NCBI RefSeq assembly: GCF_900078305.2
Contig: NZ_LT546028.1
Span: 732,948 to 796,947, forward strand
Source: Corynebacterium bouchesdurhonense
Lineage (GTDB): Bacteria > Actinomycetota > Actinomycetes > Mycobacteriales > Mycobacteriaceae
Direction: 5' to 3'
Length of the DNA: 64,000 bases
Shown: in pieces, positions 32,186 to 42,027 of the stretch
Layout: the number at the start of each line of letters is the position of its first letter
Position numbering within the stretch: position 1 is the first letter of the stretch
The notes under the pieces: model-generated
Database searches by the model: none
What the model was told of the DNA's origin: nothing
The model's input: only the letters and a program-made list of their open reading frames with translations
Translations under genes and position numbers: made by a program

Positions 32186-33949
32186 ATGACATTGGGAAAG
32201 ATCGTCTTTGTCGGCGCTGGGCCGGGCAACCCCGACCTGCTCACGATCCGTGCCCGCGAGGTACTGGAATCTAATGCTATAGCCCTGGTTGATCCGGAGG
32301 TCTCTGAGGGGGTCCGAAACGTGGTCGCGGCCCAGCTGCCGGTGCCGCAAACCAAGCTGGACAAGGCCGAGGCGGCGTACGAGGCGCTGGTCGCGGAGGC
32401 CAAGGAGGCCGGCGCCCGGCGCAAGCCGCCCCGCCCCGCCGCCCCCACCGCGGCCGAGGTCAGCGAGGTGGGATTGGGCGAAGAGGGGATCGTCGACAAG
32501 CTTAAGCTCGCGCTGGAGGAGTCCGCGGCCGCGGTCGAGCGCGGCGAAGGCGGCGAAGGCGACGTGGTGCGCCTGGTGTGCGGCAACCCCCTGACCCGCG
32601 ATTCCGTGATGGACGAGGTCTCCGCCGTGGCCGCCGCTGGCCTGGAGTTCCAGGTGGTGCCCGGAATGTCCCTGCCGTCCACCGTGCCCACCTTCGCCGG
32701 CATCGCGCTCGGCTCCACCTACACCGAGACCGACCTGGCCAACAGCTCCGTGGACTGGGACCAGCTGGCCACCGCGCCGCAGCCCCTGGTGTTCCAGGCG
32801 TCCAAGGAGCACCTGGAGGAGATGGCGCAGCAGCTCATGCAGCGCGGCTTTGCCGGCTCCACCGACGTGACTGTGACGGTCAACGGCACCACCCGCCTGC
32901 AGCGCACCTTCGACGCGACGCTTGAGACCGTGGGCAAGCTCGACGCGGACCTTTCAGGCCCGCTGATTGTCACCCTCGGCACCGTGGCAGACGAGCGCGC
33001 GAAGTACTCCTGGTGGGAGAACCGGCCGCTGTACGGGTGGCGCGTGCTCGTGCCGCGCGCCAAGGACCAGGCCGGGCCGATGAACGCGCGGTTGAGCTCC
33101 TACGGCGCCATCCCGCAGTCCGTGCCCACCATCTCCATGGAGCCGCCGCGCAACCCGGCGCAGATGGACCGCGCGATCAAGGGCATCGTGGAGGGTCGCT
33201 ACCAGTGGGTGGTCTTCACCTCCACCAACGCCGTTGACGCGGTGTGGGACAAGTTTGAGGAGCTGGGGCTCGATGCCCGCTCGTTCGCCGGCGTGCACCT
33301 GGCGGCGGTGGGGCAGCGCACCGCCGACGCGATCCGCGCCCGCGGCATGTTCCCGGAGCTGGTGCCCCACCGCACGAAGCAGAACGCGGCCGGCCTGGTC
33401 GAGGCGTTCCCCGACTACGTGGAGGACATTGACCCGGTCTCCCGCGTGCTGCTGCCGCGCGCCGACCTAGGCACCGACGTGCTGGTGGACGGCCTGGTGG
33501 AGAAGGGCTGGGAGGTCGACGACGTGGTGGCCTACCGCACCGTGCGCGCCGCCCCACCCGCGCCCGAGGTGCGCGACATGATCAAAACCGGCGGCTTCGA
33601 CGCGGTCTGCTTCACCAGCGCGTCCACCGTGAAGAACCTGGTGGGCATCGCCGGCAAGCCGCACCAGCGCACCATCATCGCCTGCATTGGCCCGATGACC
33701 GCGGCCGAGGCCCGCGAGCAGGGGTTGCGGGTGGATGTCGTCCCCGAGGTTGCTGACGTGCCTTCGCTTGTCGACGCCCTGGCCGACCACGTCGCTGACC
33801 TCCGCGCCGCAGGCCAGCTGCCGCCCCCGCGCAAGAAGCGCCGCGCCCGCCGCAAGCCGGCCGACGCCGCGGGAGATGTAGCGGCCGCGCAGGCGGGGGA
33901 GCCGGAGGGCACCGCCGATTCCGCGGGCGCGGAAGAACCGGAAGAATAG
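32186..33949 (+). CDS. hemD: Uroporphyrinogen-III synthase fused to an N-terminal SUMT-like domain
   Basis: A 587-residue fusion. Residues 1-265 resemble uroporphyrinogen-III C-methyltransferase (KIVFVGAGPGNPDLLTIRARE, FQVVPGMSLPSTVPTFAGIALGS). Residues 285-540 are uroporphyrinogen-III synthase (WRVLVPRAKDQAGPM, YQWVVFTSTNAVDAVW, VCFTSASTVKNLVG, IACIGPMTAAEAREQGLRVDVVP), which closes hydroxymethylbilane to the type III ring. The tail is basic then acidic. In the methyltransferase half the usual GDP signatures read GNP (GPGNPDLL and CGNPLT), so this half may be inactive. The ATG at 32186 has a poor ribosome binding site; a 160-base spacer separates it from hemC. Confidence 0.9.
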   Translation: MTLGKIVFVGAGPGNPDLLTIRAREVLESNAIALVDPEVSEGVRNVVAAQLPVPQTKLDKAEAAYEALVAEAKEAGARRKPPRPAAPTAAEVSEVGLGEEGIVDKLKLALEESAAAVERGEGGEGDVVRLVCGNPLTRDSVMDEVSAVAAAGLEFQVVPGMSLPSTVPTFAGIALGSTYTETDLANSSVDWDQLATAPQPLVFQASKEHLEEMAQQLMQRGFAGSTDVTVTVNGTTRLQRTFDATLETVGKLDADLSGPLIVTLGTVADERAKYSWWENRPLYGWRVLVPRAKDQAGPMNARLSSYGAIPQSVPTISMEPPRNPAQMDRAIKGIVEGRYQWVVFTSTNAVDAVWDKFEELGLDARSFAGVHLAAVGQRTADAIRARGMFPELVPHRTKQNAAGLVEAFPDYVEDIDPVSRVLLPRADLGTDVLVDGLVEKGWEVDDVVAYRTVRAAPPAPEVRDMIKTGGFDAVCFTSASTVKNLVGIAGKPHQRTIIACIGPMTAAEAREQGLRVDVVPEVADVPSLVDALADHVADLRAAGQLPPPRKKRRARRKPADAAGDVAAAQAGEPEGTADSAGAEEPEE

Positions 33950-33982
33950 GCCGGGTTGGGGGGGCGTCCTAAGATGGGGCGC

Positions 33983-35032
33983 ATGCCACTGCAACCCGAC
34001 TTCGAATCCGGCAACACCGACGTCTTCCTGCCCCGGCGGCCCCGCCGCCTGCGGCAGAACCCGCAGATCCGCGCCCTGGCCGCGGAGACCCGCCTGCACC
34101 CGGCGGACTTCATCCTGCCGGTGTTCGCCGCAGACGGGATCGGGGAGAAGCGCGAGATCTCCTCGATGCCGGGCGTGTACCAGCACACCACCGACTCGCT
34201 GAAAACGCTCTGCCACGAGGCGCTCGAGGCGGGCGTGACCTGCGTGGACGTGTTCGGCGTGCCGTTGGACGAGGACAAGGACGCCACCGGCTCCGTGGCG
34301 TGGGCGGAGGACGGCGTGCTCAACCGCACCCTCGCCGCCCTGCGCGAGGAGTTCGGCAATGACCTGGTGATTATGGCCGACACGTGCCTGGACGAGTTCA
34401 CCGATCACGGCCACTGCGGCGTGGTGCGCACCGACCGCTGGGGCCGGGACGTGGTGGACAACGACGCGACTCTGCCGCTGTACGTGAAGATGGCGGTGGC
34501 GCAGGCTGACGCGGGCGCGCACATCGTAAGCCCCTCCGGGATGATGGACGGCCAGGTGGGCGTTATCCGCGAGGCGCTCGACGCGGCCGGCCACCAGGAC
34601 GTGGCCATCATGGCGTACTCCGCAAAGTACGCGTCCAAGTTCTTCGGCCCGTTCCGGGACGCGGTCGGCTCCTCCCTCAAGGGGGACCGCCGCACCTACC
34701 AGCAGGACCCGGCCAACATCCGCGAGTCCCTCCTGGAAACCCAGCTGGACATCGACGAGGGCGCGGACTTTGTGATGGTCAAGCCCGCCATGCCGTACCT
34801 GGACGTGCTGGCCAAGGTGGCGGAGATGTCGCCCGTGCCGGTGGCCGCGTACCAGGTGTCCGGTGAGTACGCCATGATGGTGGCCGCTGGCCAGAACGGC
34901 TGGATCGACTTCGAGGAGACCATGATGGAGGCGCTGACCTCCATCAAGCGCGCGGGCGCGGACCAGATCTTCACCTACTACGCCATCGAGGCCTCGAAGC
35001 GGCTGCGCGGTGAGGGGGGCGACCGTGGTTAG
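33983..35032 (+). CDS. hemB: Delta-aminolevulinic acid dehydratase (porphobilinogen synthase)
   Basis: Condenses two 5-aminolevulinates to porphobilinogen, 349 residues. The two Schiff-base lysines are in [19 protein letters not shown] and [14 protein letters not shown]. The metal-loop sequence [15 protein letters not shown] lacks the full cysteine triad of zinc-type enzymes, pointing to the magnesium-type class. I prefer ATG 33983 ([10 protein letters not shown]) over an in-frame ATG at 33956. The end overlaps the next gene by 8 bases. Confidence 0.96.
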
Positions 35033-35642
35033 CCTCCCGCCGCCAAACCCGGGCTCCGGGTCGCACGTTGAGCCGCGTGCGGTCGCCGGCCCGCACCCCG
35101 AGAAGGGCTCGAAGCCGGAGGCCGTGCGCTACATGCTGGTCTGCTGGGCCGTGATGATCGCCGGCGAGCTGCTGCACCAGCTGCTCACCGTGATCTCGGT
35201 GGTGATCGACCCGGCGCCGCTGAAGGAATCCGCCAAGCAGGCCGCGAAGAGTCAGGGTGACGCGCTGAGCGATGCCACGCTCCATGCCGGTATGTGGGCC
35301 ACCGTGGTGGTGGCTGGGCTGATCCAGCTGGCTATCATCGGCGTCTTCGCGGCGGGTCTGAACGCGATCTCCTCGCAGAAGAAGTGGGCTCCGGGGGCTC
35401 GCCGGATGCTGCAGATCTTCGCCGGGTTCTTTGCCATCCGCGCCGCCGCGCTCTACGTCGCGCTGCCGAGCTCCACGGCGGTGCCGGGGGCGTTCTTCGC
35501 GGCCGACGGCATCATCCAGATCATCCTTGCCGTAGCGGGTGTGTTAGGCGTGATCTACTCTTCGCAGAAGGAATCGCGCGATTACGTGGAGGCGGGCGCG
35601 GACACGAAACCGGGCGGCGGTGCGGGCGGGCCCGCCCGATAA
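35025..35642 (+). CDS. Membrane protein in the hem operon, unknown function
   Basis: A 205-residue protein with a proline/glycine-rich N-terminus, then four hydrophobic segments ([83 protein letters not shown]) and a charged tail. Family not recognised. Its GTG start at 35025 lies within the end of hemB, preceded by GAGGGGGG, so expression is probably coupled to hemB. Confidence 0.75.
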
Positions 35643-35674: not shown

Positions 35675-36169
35675 ATGCCGAACATGTACCCAACGATGAT
35701 CTCCGACCCGAGCGATCGGAACCGCCGGTTCACCGGCGAGGTGGGCGACACCTGGCCGCAGTCCCTGAAGTGGGGCTACCGGTTGCTGCTCGCCGCGGCG
35801 GTGCTCATGCTCGTCACCGGGCTGATGCTGCTGAAATCGGGCGTGCCCGCGGACATCGACCCGGAGGTGCGGGGCACCTTCCGCGGAAACCTCTTCATCG
35901 TCTCCCTCGGCAACATCGTCCTGGGGCTCTGCCTCGCCGGCGCGGCGTCCTTTTTCGAGCGCGGGTCGAAGGCGGCCCGCCGGTGGGCGGCCGGGTTCGC
36001 GCTGGCGACCATCTTCCTCAACTTCGCCGGCTTCTTCGTCGGCGTGTCGGGCACGGTGTCTTTTGTCATCGTCGCCCTCGTCGCGTTCGCCATGTTCGCG
36101 GCGTTCCGCCCGGCGGCCAACGCGTATGTGGACGCGCAGAGCGGCGATCTGTGGCGGGGGGTGAAGTAG
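35675..36169 (+). CDS. Small four-helix membrane protein in the hem operon
   Basis: A 164-residue protein of unknown function with four membrane helices (LLLAAAVLMLVTGLMLLKSG, LFIVSLGNIVLGLCLAGAASFF, AGFALATIFLNFAGFFVGV, SFVIVALVAFAMFAAFRPAANAY). AAGGAG precedes the ATG at 35675. It lies between the preceding membrane protein and the ATPase-like gene, which starts 6 bases after its stop, so the three are tightly linked in one operon. Confidence 0.78.
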   Translation: MPNMYPTMISDPSDRNRRFTGEVGDTWPQSLKWGYRLLLAAAVLMLVTGLMLLKSGVPADIDPEVRGTFRGNLFIVSLGNIVLGLCLAGAASFFERGSKAARRWAAGFALATIFLNFAGFFVGVSGTVSFVIVALVAFAMFAAFRPAANAYVDAQSGDLWRGVK

Positions 36170-36175
36170 CCCACC

Positions 36176-38725
36176 GTGTCGGCAGAATCGGAAGAGCTCA
36201 CCCGCTCCATCGAGCTAGCGCGCGACGCCGCGCGGATGTGCGGCATCAACCCCGACGGCCGCAGGTCCGATGAGGACGATGAGGCGTACGGCAGGGGCAA
36301 CGCCTCCTATGCGTTCGAGCTGACCGGGGTCAAGGACGGCCCGCAGCTCAGCGACATCGAGGAGGCGCTCGAAACCATCCCCGGGGTTTCGGCACAGCTG
36401 GTGTACCCCACCTCCACGGCGTGGGTTACCGCCCCGGCGGACCTTGACCCGGAGGCCATCACCGCCGTCATCGCGAGCTTCGGCATCGAGGCAGAGATGA
36501 GCGACAACACCCTGCGCCGCCGTGCGCTGACCGCGGCGTCGGAGCTGCGCTCGCCGCGGCGCAGCACCCGCGCAATGTCGGAGCGCATCCGGCGCCGCCG
36601 CCGCGACGCGCAGGCGAACCTGACCGTGGCGCGCGAGGCGGGGTTCATGAACCGCCGCGACACGGCCAAGCGCAACGACAGCGACGACGTGCTCTTCACC
36701 GCGCGCGACCTGGTTACCCCGGCCAGGCTGATCACCGCGATTGTGCTGGCAATCCCCGTCATCGCCATGAGCTACGTGCCCGCGCTGCAGTTCCAGGGCT
36801 GGCAGTGGGTGTGCTTCGCGCTCGCCACCCCGGTGGCGCTGTGGTGCGCGTTCCCGTTCCACCGCGCGATGGCCGGCGGCGTGCGCCGCGGTATCTCCGC
36901 GCTCGACGGGGCGAGCTCGATCGCGGTTCTGGCCGCCTATACCTGGTCCGCCGCGGTGCTTTTCCTCACCGAGGCCGGCCGCCTGGGTTGGGTGTCCAGC
37001 GGCGGGTGGCTGTCCACCAGGCGGGGTAACCAGGTGGAGATCTTCCTCGACGTGGCCTGCGGCGTGACCGCGCTGCTTCTGATCGGCCGCTTCTTCACCA
37101 AACGCGCTGGCAACAGCCTGGTGGACGAGATGAACCGACTCACCCCCGCGTCGGAGACCGAGTACCAGGTGTGCCGCCGCGGCAAGGCGGACGCGGAAGT
37201 CATCGCCGTCTCAGAGATCAACCGGGGCGACGACGTGATTGTCACCCGCGGTGAGATCGTGCCCGTGGACGGCGAGGTGGTTGGCGGCTCAGGCGCGCTC
37301 AGCCACGTCCTGATCGGGGTGAGCGCGGACCCGGAGTTCAAGGTCGGCGACGTGGTCTCGGCCGGCGCGGTGGTGGAGCGCGGGAAGTTGAAGGTGCGCG
37401 CGCAGCGAACGGGCCACGCCACGCGGTGGGCGTCGGTAAGCCGCTGGGTGGGGGACGCCTCGAAGCGCGAGAACAACTCCACCATGATCTCAACCAAGTC
37501 CGCGAGCGTGCTGATCCCTACCGCCTACGTGCTGGCGGTCCTGGATTTCGGTATGTGGATCCTGCTCACGGGCGACTACAACGCGGCGTTCTCCACCGCC
37601 CTGGCCATTCTCGCGGTGGTGGCCCCGGTGGCGCTGGCCATCTCGCCGGCGCTGGCCACGCGCAACGGCATCGAGGCGGCGGCGCGCAACGGCATCTTGA
37701 TCCGGGACGGTTCCGCGCTGCGCCGCCTGGAAGAGGTGGACACGGTGGTGTTCAACCGCGTCGGGACGCTGATCCAGCCTGATATGTCGGTGGAAACCGT
37801 CACCGCGGCCCGCGGCGAGGACTCGGAGCTTGTGCTGCTGGTAGCTGCGGCGCTGCTGGTGGAGTCGAACCACCCTGCGTCGCGCGCCATCGTCGCCGCG
37901 GCGCGCGAGGCCAAGACCCACGGTGCGCCGTGGCGCGTGGACCTGGACGACTCGGAGTTCCAGGCGGACGGCAGCTGCGTGGGCCGCGTGGAGGTCCGCC
38001 CGGTGGCGGACGACAAGTCGCCGCAGGAAGACCAGACCACCCGCATCGACGCTACGCTGTGGCGCCCCACCAACCTCTCCCAGCTCAGCGGCCGCCTCGC
38101 GCTGGCGGCTACCTCCGGCGGTGCGCCCCTGGTGGTGCGTTGGAAGGGCAAGGACCGCGGCGTGATCACGCTGCACGAGCCTGCGAAGAACGACGCCGCC
38201 GACGCCGTGGACCGCCTCGAGTCCATGGGGCTGACCACGGTGATGCTTTCTCGCGACACGTACGCCGTGAGCCGCCGCTTTGCCAACATGCTGGGCATCA
38301 CCTCGGTGCTGGCAGGTATGACCGCGCAGGAGAAGCCGGCCGCGGTGCGCCAGCTGCACACCCGCGGCGCCAACGTGGCCATGGTGGGCAGCACCTCGGT
38401 GCTTGACGTCGTCGCGGTCGGGGACGTGGGCATCCTCTACGCGGACGACGAGATATTGGACGTGAACGTGAAGAAGGCCGAGGCCGATGTGGACGCCGTA
38501 GTGCTGCGCCCGGAGGTCACCGCCGTGCCCCAGCTGATCGAGCACGGCCGCCGCGTCTCGCGCATTATTGACTCGAACATGGTCTTCGCCATCGTGTACA
38601 ACGCGGTGGCGGTCGCGCTCGCCGCGTTCGGCGCGCTGCCGCCCATGGGCGCCACCCTGCTGATGCTGGGCAGCTCCCTGATCATCGAGTACCGCTCCAT
38701 CGGCGCCCGCCGCTTCCCCCAGTAG
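36176..38725 (+). CDS. P-type-ATPase-like protein lacking catalytic motifs (pseudoenzyme candidate)
   Basis: An 849-residue protein with the layout of a P1B metal ATPase. An N-terminal HMA-like fold (about residues 40-115) lacks a CxxC. Paired membrane helices and A-, P- and N-like domains follow. The catalytic motifs are gone. The DKTGT box reads FNRVGTLIQ, with Asn527 in place of the phosphorylated Asp. CPC reads A483-P484-V485, TGES reads I380-G-V-S, and the GDGxND hinge reads VGSTSVLDVV (from residue 737). Only the N-domain His-Pro (SNHPAS, His566) remains recognisable. The frame is fully open with normal codon use, so it is probably expressed. It may bind a metal, heme precursor or partner instead of pumping. 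Confidence 0.85.
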   Translation: MSAESEELTRSIELARDAARMCGINPDGRRSDEDDEAYGRGNASYAFELTGVKDGPQLSDIEEALETIPGVSAQLVYPTSTAWVTAPADLDPEAITAVIASFGIEAEMSDNTLRRRALTAASELRSPRRSTRAMSERIRRRRRDAQANLTVAREAGFMNRRDTAKRNDSDDVLFTARDLVTPARLITAIVLAIPVIAMSYVPALQFQGWQWVCFALATPVALWCAFPFHRAMAGGVRRGISALDGASSIAVLAAYTWSAAVLFLTEAGRLGWVSSGGWLSTRRGNQVEIFLDVACGVTALLLIGRFFTKRAGNSLVDEMNRLTPASETEYQVCRRGKADAEVIAVSEINRGDDVIVTRGEIVPVDGEVVGGSGALSHVLIGVSADPEFKVGDVVSAGAVVERGKLKVRAQRTGHATRWASVSRWVGDASKRENNSTMISTKSASVLIPTAYVLAVLDFGMWILLTGDYNAAFSTALAILAVVAPVALAISPALATRNGIEAAARNGILIRDGSALRRLEEVDTVVFNRVGTLIQPDMSVETVTAARGEDSELVLLVAAALLVESNHPASRAIVAAAREAKTHGAPWRVDLDDSEFQADGSCVGRVEVRPVADDKSPQEDQTTRIDATLWRPTNLSQLSGRLALAATSGGAPLVVRWKGKDRGVITLHEPAKNDAADAVDRLESMGLTTVMLSRDTYAVSRRFANMLGITSVLAGMTAQEKPAAVRQLHTRGANVAMVGSTSVLDVVAVGDVGILYADDEILDVNVKKAEADVDAVVLRPEVTAVPQLIEHGRRVSRIIDSNMVFAIVYNAVAVALAAFGALPPMGATLLMLGSSLIIEYRSIGARRFPQ

Positions 38726-38785: not shown

Positions 38786-39865
38786 ATGACACGACGCGAC
38801 CTCACCCATGCCCCGCTGATTGAGGCCGCCCACGGCCGCACCCCCGCGCGCACCCCGGTCTGGTTCATGCGCCAGGCCGGCCGCTCGCTTCCGGAGTACC
38901 GCGAGGTGCGCGAGGGCATCCCCATGCTCGATTCCTGCTTCATGCCGGACCTGCTCGCTGAGATCACTCTGCAGCCCGTGCGCCGCCACGACGTGGATGC
39001 CGCAATCCTGTTCTCGGACATCGTGGTACCGCTCAAAGCGGCCGGCGTGGACGTGGAGATCGTGCCCGGCAAGGGGCCGGTGATGGCGCAGCCGATCCGC
39101 ACCAAGCGCGACGTGGAGGAGCTTCCGCTTCTCGACGCACCCGTGGACGAAGTCGCAGCCGGCATCGAGACGATCCTCGCCGAACTGACCGACACCCAGG
39201 CGCTCATCGGCTTCGTCGGCGCCCCGTTCACCCTGGCCAGCTACCTTGTCGAGGGCGGGCCCAGCAAGAACCACGAGAAGACGAAGGCGATGATGCACGC
39301 CGAGCCCGACACGTGGCACGCGCTGATGCGCCGCCTGGTGCCCACGATCACCTCGTTTCTGCGCACCCAGGTGGAGGCCGGCATCGACGCCATGCAGCTG
39401 TTCGACTCCTGGGCGGGCTTCCTCACCGAGGCGGATTACCGGGAGCACGTGCTGCCGTACTCCACGGAGATCCTGGAGACGGTGGCGGGCGAGATCCCGC
39501 GCATCCACTTCGGCGTGGCCACAGGCGAATTGCTCGGCGCCATGTCCGAGGCCGGCAGCGAGGTGATGGGCGTGGACTGGCGCGTGCCCCTGGATACCGC
39601 CGCCCGCCGCTTCGCCTCCCCGCGGGTGCTGCAGGGAAACCTGGACCCGGCGCTGCTCTTCGCGGGCACCGACGTGGTCCGCTCCGAGGTGGCGCGCATC
39701 AAGGCGGAGGCCAAGCGCGCGATGGAGGAGGGCACCGCCACCGGGCACATCTTCAACCTGGGGCACGGGGTGCTGCCCACCACGGACGCGGACGCGGTGA
39801 CTGAGGCCGTCCGCATCATCCACGAGACGGACGACACGAACGAGACGGACGAGACGGAGGCGTAA
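38786..39865 (+). CDS. hemE: Uroporphyrinogen decarboxylase
   Basis: Removes four acetate carboxyls from uroporphyrinogen III to give coproporphyrinogen III, 359 residues. The signature PVWFMRQAGRSLPEYR lies near the N-terminus. Further conserved segments are ILFSDIVVPLKAAG, GFVGAPFTLASYLVEGG, DSWAGFL, VLQGNLDPALLF and FNLGHGVLP. The tail carries a short acidic repeat (ETDDTNETDETEA). It is followed 3 bases later by hemY. Confidence 0.96.
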   Translation: MTRRDLTHAPLIEAAHGRTPARTPVWFMRQAGRSLPEYREVREGIPMLDSCFMPDLLAEITLQPVRRHDVDAAILFSDIVVPLKAAGVDVEIVPGKGPVMAQPIRTKRDVEELPLLDAPVDEVAAGIETILAELTDTQALIGFVGAPFTLASYLVEGGPSKNHEKTKAMMHAEPDTWHALMRRLVPTITSFLRTQVEAGIDAMQLFDSWAGFLTEADYREHVLPYSTEILETVAGEIPRIHFGVATGELLGAMSEAGSEVMGVDWRVPLDTAARRFASPRVLQGNLDPALLFAGTDVVRSEVARIKAEAKRAMEEGTATGHIFNLGHGVLPTTDADAVTEAVRIIHETDDTNETDETEA

Positions 39866-39868
39866 ACC

Positions 39869-41248
39869 GTGAATATTGCCATCATCGGTGCCGGGCTGGC
39901 GGGGCTGACCGCCGCGTACGAGCTGCGGGATGCGGGCGCCCGCGTGGACGTCTACGAGGCCACCGACCGCATCGGCGGCAAGCTCTACACCGTCGCGTTC
40001 GAGGCGGGCCCCACCGACATGGGCGCCGAGGCGTTCATGGCGCGCCGGGTGGACGCGGTGGAGTTCTTCAAGGAGCTGGGGCTCGGCGACTCCTTGGTGG
40101 AGCCGTCGGGGCTGGGCTCCTTGGTGTACGTGGACGGGCGCACCGAGCCGCTGCCGCACGCGGGGATCATGGGCATCCCCTCCTCGTCCGCGCCGGTTGC
40201 GCACTTGGTCTCGGAGGCAACGGCCGCGAAGATCGACGCCGAGGGTGACGCGCCCGGTTTCGAGTGGGAGATTGGCTCGGACGTGAACGTCGGCAAGCTT
40301 GTGCGCGAACGCTACGGCGATGAAGTGGTGGACAACATTGTGACCTCGCTGCTCGGCGGGGTGTATTCCTGCGCCGCGGACGACCTCGGCGTGCGGGCGA
40401 CGATCCCGCAGCTGGCGGAGGAGTTCGACCGGCTGGCCGAGCGCGGGCCGGTGCATCTGTCCGAGGCGGTGCGCAACCTGGAGAACGCGCGCAAGGAGCT
40501 GCCCACCGGCCAGGGCGCGGTGTTCAACGCATTCCGCGACGGCTACCAGGAGCTCTACGAGGAGCTGGCGGAGCGCTCCGGCGCGGACATTTACGTGGAC
40601 GCGTTCATCTCCGGCATCGAGCGGGTGGGCGACGGTGCCGCTGGCACGTTCCGCCTCAAGGGCGGCGAGGACGTGGAGTATGACGCGGTGCTGCTGGCCG
40701 TGCCGGCCCCCACGGCGGCGCTGTTGCTCAAGCAGGTCGCGCCCGGGGCGGCCGCTGCACTTACCCCGGTGAAGCTGGCCAACTCCGCCGTGGTGGGCAT
40801 GCGGTTTGCCACCGACGAGGGCCTGCCGCAGAACTCCGGCGTGCTGGTCGCAGCGGGGGAGCAGGACGTGCGCGCCAAGGCGTTCACCTTCTCCTCCCGC
40901 AAGTGGCCGCACCTAGCCGAGCGCGGCGGTGCCCTAGTGCGCGCGAGCTTCGGGCGCTTCGGCGACGACGTCGCGCTGCGCGCCAGCGAGGACGACCTGG
41001 TGGATTGGGCGCTCGATGACTTGAAGGCCATCACCGGGTTCGACGGCCGCGAGGCAGGGCTGGAGGAGATCTACGTCCAGCGCTGGTTCGGAGGCATCCC
41101 GCGCTACGACGAGCACCACCTCGACACGGTGGCGCGCGTGGTGGAGCAGCTGCCGGAGGGCGTCGCCGTCACGGGCGCATGGGTCGGCGGCGTTGGCGTG
41201 CCGGCGGTGATCGCCCACGCGCGCGCTGCGGCCGAGCGCCTGCGCTAG
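39869..41248 (+). CDS. hemY: Coproporphyrinogen III oxidase (HemY/CgoX)
   Basis: FAD-dependent oxidase of the HemY family, 459 residues. The dinucleotide-binding motif is IAIIGAGLAGLTAAYELRDAG, with ATDRIGGKLYT, and the C-terminal FAD contact is VTGAWVGGVGVPAVIAHARAAAERL. In Gram-positive bacteria this enzyme oxidises coproporphyrinogen III in the coproporphyrin-dependent heme pathway; older annotation calls it protoporphyrinogen oxidase. The GTG start is 3 bases after hemE. Its stop shares a CTAG palindrome with the convergent toxin gene's stop. Confidence 0.92.
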   Translation: MNIAIIGAGLAGLTAAYELRDAGARVDVYEATDRIGGKLYTVAFEAGPTDMGAEAFMARRVDAVEFFKELGLGDSLVEPSGLGSLVYVDGRTEPLPHAGIMGIPSSSAPVAHLVSEATAAKIDAEGDAPGFEWEIGSDVNVGKLVRERYGDEVVDNIVTSLLGGVYSCAADDLGVRATIPQLAEEFDRLAERGPVHLSEAVRNLENARKELPTGQGAVFNAFRDGYQELYEELAERSGADIYVDAFISGIERVGDGAAGTFRLKGGEDVEYDAVLLAVPAPTAALLLKQVAPGAAAALTPVKLANSAVVGMRFATDEGLPQNSGVLVAAGEQDVRAKAFTFSSRKWPHLAERGGALVRASFGRFGDDVALRASEDDLVDWALDDLKAITGFDGREAGLEEIYVQRWFGGIPRYDEHHLDTVARVVEQLPEGVAVTGAWVGGVGVPAVIAHARAAAERLR

Positions 41249-41673
41249 GTTGGGGGCTCGTCCCAGGGGTTGATCAGGGTGACCCCGGTGCCTGTGAAGT
41301 CTTTGATGTTTCGCGTCGCCAGCGGGGCGCCGTGCGCTCGGCAGATCGCGGCGATCATCGCATCGGCATCCGCGACGGGGCGGCCGGCAGCGTTGCGCCG
41401 CGCAGCGACATCACCGAACTCGTGGGCGGCCCGCGCATCGAACGGGAGTACACCCCCGCGCATCTCGAAGCTCATGAGCTGCCCTGTCACGCTCGCGGCG
41501 AGGGCGTCGCGTCTTGCACCCCGCGGAAGAAGACTTACCCCGCGGGTCATCTCGGCTGCCGTGACAGCGGTAATTGTGAGGAGGTCTCCAGCCGATTCGG
41601 ACCACGCGAGGACCCGCGTATCCGGCGCATAGCGCCCCAGTTCCGACACCACGTTGGTATCGAGCACGATCAC
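41245..41673 (-). CDS. PIN-domain toxin (VapC/FitB-like)
   Basis: A 142-residue PIN-domain ribonuclease toxin. The acidic metal-binding residues are in MIVLDTNVVSEL (start), TAAEMTRG (middle), VADADAMIAAI and LATRNIKDFTGTGV (end). The pattern, with WSESAG and LLPRGARRDAL, is that of FitB/VapC. The GTG start overlaps the antitoxin stop. The gene's stop codon and that of hemY share four bases, so the toxin abuts the heme operon exactly. Confidence 0.88.
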   Translation of the reverse strand: MIVLDTNVVSELGRYAPDTRVLAWSESAGDLLTITAVTAAEMTRGVSLLPRGARRDALAASVTGQLMSFEMRGGVLPFDARAAHEFGDVAARRNAAGRPVADADAMIAAICRAHGAPLATRNIKDFTGTGVTLINPWDEPPT

Positions 41674-41924
41674 GGCGCGTTCCCGCGGCGATCGGTGACT
41701 GCGTCCTCCATTACTTCAGCGAGGTCGTCCAAACCGCCGAAAACGGCGCCAAGCTGGTGAAATTCCACGCCAACATTCACGGGGCGTACCGCGTCGGCCA
41801 AGATGTGCCGGACCTCGCCCTCCATCGAGCGACCGTGGCGCGCGGCCCGCTGCTTGAGCTTGGCTTTCACCGACGCATCTATGCCCCGGATAGTGAGGGT
41901 GACATCGCTGTTCTGTGCCGGCAT
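41670..41924 (-). CDS. FitA-like ribbon-helix-helix antitoxin
   Basis: An 84-residue antitoxin partner. The N-terminal DNA-binding ribbon-helix-helix reads VTLTIRGIDASVKAKLKQRAARHGRSMEGEVRHILADAV, a FitA/VapB signature. The C-terminal part (VEFHQLGAVFGGLDDLAEVMEDAVTDRRG) would wrap the toxin. GGAGG lies 5 bases before the ATG at 41924, which is preferred over a start 15 codons upstream. It overlaps the toxin start by 4 bases, so the pair is one autoregulated unit. Confidence 0.87.
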   Translation of the reverse strand: MPAQNSDVTLTIRGIDASVKAKLKQRAARHGRSMEGEVRHILADAVRPVNVGVEFHQLGAVFGGLDDLAEVMEDAVTDRRGNAP

Positions 41925-42027
41925 AGCAACCTCCAGGTGACCTGCAATAGATGTGTAGGCAAAATGCAAGCATACCCCTGTGGGCGCAGGTGGTCACTGC
42001 GCCCGGCGCACACTAAGTTGTACGCCT

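Follow-up and report, generated by a model that had tools for sequence, protein, structure and literature searches.

Why should a cluster of heme genes keep an intact gene for a heavy-metal pump homologue in which the catalytic motifs are replaced? This question is raised by a gene of Corynebacterium bouchesdurhonense that occupies positions 36176-38725 of the forward strand in the 64,000-nucleotide stretch of DNA analysed here (the window). The frame runs from a GTG start to its stop codon over 849 codons without an internal stop, and its GC3 of 0.92 is close to that of hemB (0.94) and hemE (0.93); the intact frame and normal codon use noticed in an earlier sequence-only reading therefore hold. 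We refer to the product as the pseudo-ATPase.

The genes around it follow on the same strand in the order hemA, hemC, hemD, hemB, mp1, mp2, pseudo-ATPase, hemE and hemY, and further downstream of hemY come hemL and a cytochrome c assembly gene. The hemD frame (32189-33949, Pfam HEM4 and TP_methylase) is fused to a tetrapyrrole methylase, hemB lies at 33956-35032 (Pfam ALAD) and hemE at 38786-39865 (Pfam URO-D). The open reading frames mp1 (35010-35642, overlapping hemB) and mp2 (35675-36169, start uncertain) code for small membrane proteins, for which no family scored above cut-off in Pfam or NCBIfam. Only 6 bases separate the end of mp2 from the pseudo-ATPase gene and 60 bases separate the latter from hemE, so the position between hemB with two small membrane genes and hemE is as first described. 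A scan within mp2 returned zero promoter-like sites (mean of shuffles 0.3) and two terminator-like sites, as many as in shuffles (mean 1.7). Between hemY and hemL, two small open reading frames at 41245-41969 run on the strand opposite to the hem genes; by eye we take this pair to resemble a PIN-domain toxin and a FitA/VapB-type antitoxin.

Homology and the replaced motifs

The pseudo-ATPase is homologous to P1B-type ATPases by descent and fold, and this is not in doubt. The Pfam models E1-E2_ATPase (1.1e-23) and Hydrolase (2e-12) both exceed their cut-offs, the copper ATPase 3rfu in the PDB is matched at E 4.1e-42, and the NCBIfam heavy-metal P-type model TIGR01525 gives 269.7 bits, which is below its cut-off of 346.25. 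The N-terminal domain (residues 48-110, 36317-36505) is HMA-like, with a Pfam value of 0.045, below cut-off, and a match of 1.5e-5 to the mercuric reductase domain 2kt2. An AF2 model of the whole fold from 34 sequences reached a mean pLDDT of 83.5 and a pTM of 0.70, and its nearest solved structure is a copper ATPase (7r0g_A, Z 33.8, rmsd 3.2 over 613 residues). Pumps in the E1 state are among the best structural matches of the model, an observation from which we draw no conformational state. With the CopA-type Cu+ P1B-ATPases (AfCopA 7r0g, LpCopA 3rfu, ATP7B) the pseudo-ATPase shares the membrane/A/P/N fold, the Tyr-Asn and Met of the membrane site and the weak HMA-like N-terminal domain, but it lacks the phosphorylated Asp, the CPC, TGE and ND motifs, the N-domain GxG, the HMA CxxC and the copper entry residues.

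These losses were followed through an alignment of 106 sequences, namely the window copy and 105 further loci, together with 29 intact CopA-type controls; L162, a MAG sequence that is interrupted near residue 478 and stops at the contig end, was left out of the counts. The former phosphorylation motif reads F526-N-R-V-G-T-L (37751-37771) and the rebuilt TGD motif R693-D-T-Y (38252-38263). Where all 29 controls have Asp527, Lys528 and Gly693, every pseudo form has Asn527, Arg528 and Arg693, and Gly530, Leu532, Asp694, Tyr696 and Lys720 are likewise found in 106/106. The former TGE loop is I380-G-V-S (37313-37324), and its T-G pair occurs in 0/106. The former GDGxND hinge is G738-S-T-S-V-L-D (38387-38407), where N741 and D742 occur in 0/106 and Asp739, lost in the window copy, is kept in 94/106. 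The N-domain GxG is lost, while His566 of the nucleotide site is retained in 98/106. At the positions of the control HMA cysteines the window copy has D54 and Q57; no sequence has Cys at either of them and a single one of the 106 has a CxxC elsewhere within the first 130 residues. The former CPC metal motif is A483-P-V (37622-37630) and CPC itself occurs in 0/106; the column reads APV in 73, GPV in 9, APT in 7, APA in 6, APP in 3, APL in 3, APF in 2, CPV in 2 and SPV in 1, so Cys-Pro persists as C-P-V in two sequences and is replaced by Ala/Gly-Pro in 103. A membrane metal motif of the form CP[CHS] or [ST]PC was found in 0/106. Further invariant residues are Trp424, Trp461, Arg630 and Pro631; of these, the controls usually have Arg630 and commonly Trp461 and Pro631.

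None of the features of a working P1B pump (the Asp of DKTGT, CPx/xPC, TGE, GDGxND) is present in the pseudo-ATPase, which by its sequence would be classed as a pseudoenzyme: a homologue of an enzyme family without the catalytic residues, conserved in that form. We regard it as nearly certain that the protein is conserved and cannot go through the P-type cycle. The sequence-only reading was accurate on Asn527, APV, IGVS, GSTSVLD and the missing HMA CxxC of the window copy, and Asn527 proved invariant, whereas APV is conserved less as a motif than as Ala/Gly-Pro. Its statement that every motif is lost goes too far: the catalytic Asp, CPC, TGE and ND are gone, but Asp694 of TGD, Lys720, Tyr808 and others are kept. 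Ser/Thr692 (102/106) and Ser834 (94/106) are also retained.

In the HAD fold, the nucleophile and the Mg2+ ligands are distinguished from residues on the phosphate side, here Ser/Thr692 and Lys720. Without the nucleophile and the Mg2+ ligands, and with arginines added, the pocket looks like an anion-binding site that would carry out no chemistry.

Distribution, gene order and selection in the genus

A match to the pseudo-ATPase at E<=1e-100 was found in 185 of 242 Corynebacterium genomes and was absent in 57. From these we fetched 106 loci, of which 100 were hand-picked for spread among the matches listed and six were low-scoring or odd; the frame is at least 794 amino acids long in 105 of them. 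The matches in G071 and G139 were flagged with one stop inside, and the frames extracted there (L113, L115) exceed 780 amino acids. Carriers include C. jeikeium, C. silvaticum, C. halotolerans, C. glaucum and C. glucuronolyticum. FNRxG together with Ala/Gly-Pro was read in 42 of 43 named Corynebacterium loci, the remaining one (L226) ending before the motif; many of these are genomes already counted and add no further evidence. A one-off or a frame artefact is ruled out by the 105 further loci.

At 18 inspected loci without the gene, hemE comes after hemB and the interval contains no ATPase match. Presence and absence require at least 4 changes on a tree of hemD and hemB (119 loci, with only 18 gene-less genomes and some weak forks), and the gene therefore seems to have been present early in the genus and to have disappeared on several occasions. 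Given the 57 genomes without a match and these independent absences, it is dispensable in some lineages. The two small membrane proteins had been suggested as possible partners of the pseudo-ATPase; since mp1 was detected in 16 and mp2 in 14 of the 18 gene-less loci, they are not simply its subunits. By a simple hydropathy count in 104 loci with hemB, one membrane frame lies between hemB and the pseudo-ATPase gene in 22 loci, two in 81 and three in 1. Both small genes evolve fast, with tree lengths of 20.9 (mp1) and 18.9 (mp2) against 6.1 for hemB.

All 106 fetched stretches contain hem genes, hemB is present in 105 (the exception is L158), and in 105/105 loci the detected hem genes share the strand of the pseudo-ATPase gene. 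The next hem gene after it, among 105 loci, is hemE in 84 (with a gap of more than 500 bases in 14 of them), hemL in 18 (L135, L138, L139, L141-L148, L153-L155, L158 and L163-L165), hemY in 1 and none within the stretch in 2. A search for hemE in 45 genomes, all of which have it, covered 16 of the 18 hemL-type genomes and placed hemE on another contig or hundreds of kb away in 16/16. The pseudo-ATPase gene thus stays with the hemB (and hemL) side, because the hemL-type loci keep it while hemE is elsewhere.

Selection was estimated from 24 non-overlapping pairs, 13 close and 11 more divergent. In the 13 pairs with dN <0.12 the dN/dS of the pseudo-ATPase gene is 0.02-0.21, compared with 0.02-0.18 for hemB, and the gene is under purifying selection in these close pairs; together with the invariant Asn527 and the Ala/Gly-Pro in 103 sequences, this supports the proposal that a pseudoenzyme is being kept under selection. 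In the 11 divergent pairs dN/dS is 0.18-1.0 against 0.09-0.40 for hemB, where dS is probably saturated, and the pseudo-ATPase evolves at roughly twice the rate of hemB. The sole pair that includes the window, with L078, is a divergent one (0.50, against 0.21 for hemB and 0.12 for hemE).

The covariation of branch lengths was first calculated for seven genes in 42 species, with normalisation to the average of the remaining genes; it gave +0.46 with hemD, +0.24 with mp1 and +0.25 with mp2 (both weak), -0.24 with hemE and -0.09 with hemY. Because such a normalisation can create correlations by itself, we then used partial correlations, also on topologies taken from other sets of genes. For five genes in 67 species the partial correlation with hemD is +0.60 (95% interval 0.49-0.70), while those with hemB, hemE and hemY are +0.27, -0.12 and +0.11. 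The 25 species absent from the first run again gave +0.60 with hemD, and three other topologies gave +0.57 to +0.66. With the seven-gene set hemD reaches +0.47, a value that does not firmly exceed that of hemB (interval of the difference -0.04 to 0.52). When the protein is divided (63 species), its N-terminal 505 residues covary weakly with both halves of hemD (+0.19, +0.25) and the remainder hardly (+0.10, +0.01). All controls for the rates are further hem genes. Rates of long genes are also better determined than those of short ones, yet hemY gives no signal.

The shared rate changes of hemD and the pseudo-ATPase gene across species are seen despite three intervening genes. A second covarying pair is formed by hemE and hemY (+0.4 to +0.6). 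Gene order and rates together associate the pseudo-ATPase more closely with the hemD/hemB side of the cluster than with hemE or hemY. Either of the latter two is a less likely partner, given the separate places of hemE and the rate results.

Possible roles of the pseudo-ATPase

Our leading reading, which we hold tentatively and at somewhat less than an even chance, is that the protein is a pseudo-pump of the membrane whose rebuilt pocket binds a ligand and which acts as a scaffold or a brake of early tetrapyrrole enzymes. The former catalytic pocket would have been rebuilt from Asn527, Arg528, Arg693, Asp694, Tyr696 and Lys720 and could accommodate a small anionic molecule or a negatively charged patch on a partner, with no turnover. 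The cytoplasmic domains might then pass the signal of binding on to the membrane part; the protein would serve as a scaffold or brake for HemD, HemB and their neighbours, perhaps with mp1 and mp2. Here the ligand, the partner and the direction of the effect are what we infer. The retention of Tyr808, Asn809, Met830 and His566 counts against a pure scaffold, which could lose them.

A more specific and more doubtful form of this reading is a ligand-gated membrane organiser: the pocket would read an anionic intermediate of the pathway, and the movements of a P-type pump, made without ATP turnover, would gate or cluster HemD and HemB.

The membrane residues leave room for another role, that of a sensor or passive carrier in the membrane that binds metal or heme, which we consider unlikely. 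It would use the kept Tyr808-Asn809 of the membrane site (38597-38602; 106/106 and 102/106), Met830 (103/106) and the new Cys295 (37058-37060), which lies in the second core membrane helix (291-311 in the AF2 model) and is present in 106/106 where the controls have Gly, Ala or Ser. Against such a role speak the lone thiol that Cys295 offers, the location of the strongest new invariants in the cytoplasmic P-domain, and the replacement of both CPC and the copper entry of CopA. In AfCopA, Met158, Glu205 and Asp336 have been proposed for copper entry (PMC9433437), and in our alignment these correspond to Leu243 (106/106), Ser/Thr308 (89) and Thr440 (84).

The ancestry of the protein bears on a further alternative, namely that it is a regulatory partner of working CopA, which would pair or compete with pumps of the same genome and tune copper for cytochrome oxidase. 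In FastTree and IQ-TREE phylogenies the pseudo forms make up a single, fully supported clade whose long stem lies within or next to the CopA-type pumps, and the best explanation is that, early in the history of the genus Corynebacterium, a CopA-type pump ceased to be phosphorylated and dephosphorylated and lost its copper path. The sequence-only reading named same-locus homologues that keep DKTGT and CPC as evidence against a pseudoenzyme; these were seen in none of the Corynebacterium loci read, but in a sense they exist in Prescottella and Rhodococcus. There, an intact CopA-type gene likewise follows hemB by 2-3 kb on the same strand, at 3175-5899 of L228, 3695-5902 of L252 and 4001-5812 of L233, and the gene directly before it in L228 is presumably CsoR-like. 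Unlike the pseudo-ATPase, these pumps of the csoR-copA type module have all catalytic motifs intact, and they group with ordinary CopA in both phylogenies. The AU test rejected neither a grouping of the pseudo forms with the hemB-side pumps nor two control groupings (p 0.571, 0.317, 0.531) and therefore has no power on shared descent with L228, L233 and L252. Among the matches listed from the family (131 genomes, including 9 from Corynebacterium, with at most 7 candidates scored per genome and many assemblies fragmented), none outside Corynebacterium was seen by eye within 20 kb of hemB.

A partnership with CopA would suit this descent, the intact CPC-type pumps that the genome of the window also has (L266, L267) and the cytochrome c assembly gene in the same cluster. 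However, the loci read place the gene with hem genes and no copper pump or chaperone beside it, and we know of no heterodimeric P1B-ATPase; taken together, we judge the idea rather improbable. It gains some weight from C. glutamicum, in which hemL, ccsA and ccsB mRNA rose 3.6-fold under copper excess (PMC3140484).

An exporter or importer of porphyrin precursors in the old pump fold, driven otherwise than by ATP, seems to us quite improbable. The retained transporter fold and the location in the heme operon would suit it, but no energy coupling is visible, the conservation of the P-domain would be needless, and we know of no such case. A decaying relic is scarcely credible: the absences and the interrupted L162 would be expected of one, but the long frames in 105/106 loci, the invariant new residues and the low dN/dS of close pairs rule out neutral decay.

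Relation to known systems and meaning

Pseudoenzymes are well known among kinases, and a published survey of the FUPA, the P-type ATPase families whose function is unknown, may list the protein described here. We found no description of it in CC-licensed open-access PMC papers, and as a comparable P-type case these yielded one degenerate domain fused to a cyclase of Plasmodium and no free-standing bacterial protein. A free-standing, genus-wide pseudo-P1B-ATPase thus appears to be new with respect to this literature. Plasmodium GCbeta carries a degenerate P4-ATPase domain in which most signature residues are reported to be lost (PMC6592433); it resembles the pseudo-ATPase in this respect and differs in being eukaryotic, of P4 type, fused to a guanylate cyclase and encoded outside a heme operon.

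For Bacillus HemX the likeness is of another kind, and we assume that the two proteins and their folds are unrelated. HemX is an analogue by gene context only: it is encoded in the early heme operon hemAXCDBL and affects the level of HemA (PMC10991733).

The annotation of the pseudo-ATPase as a metal transporter by homology is likely wrong. The conservation of a dead pump in the heme operon hints at a membrane-bound control layer of corynebacterial heme synthesis. If the more doubtful organiser reading were true, a bacterial genus would have converted a copper pump into an organiser of tetrapyrrole synthesis.
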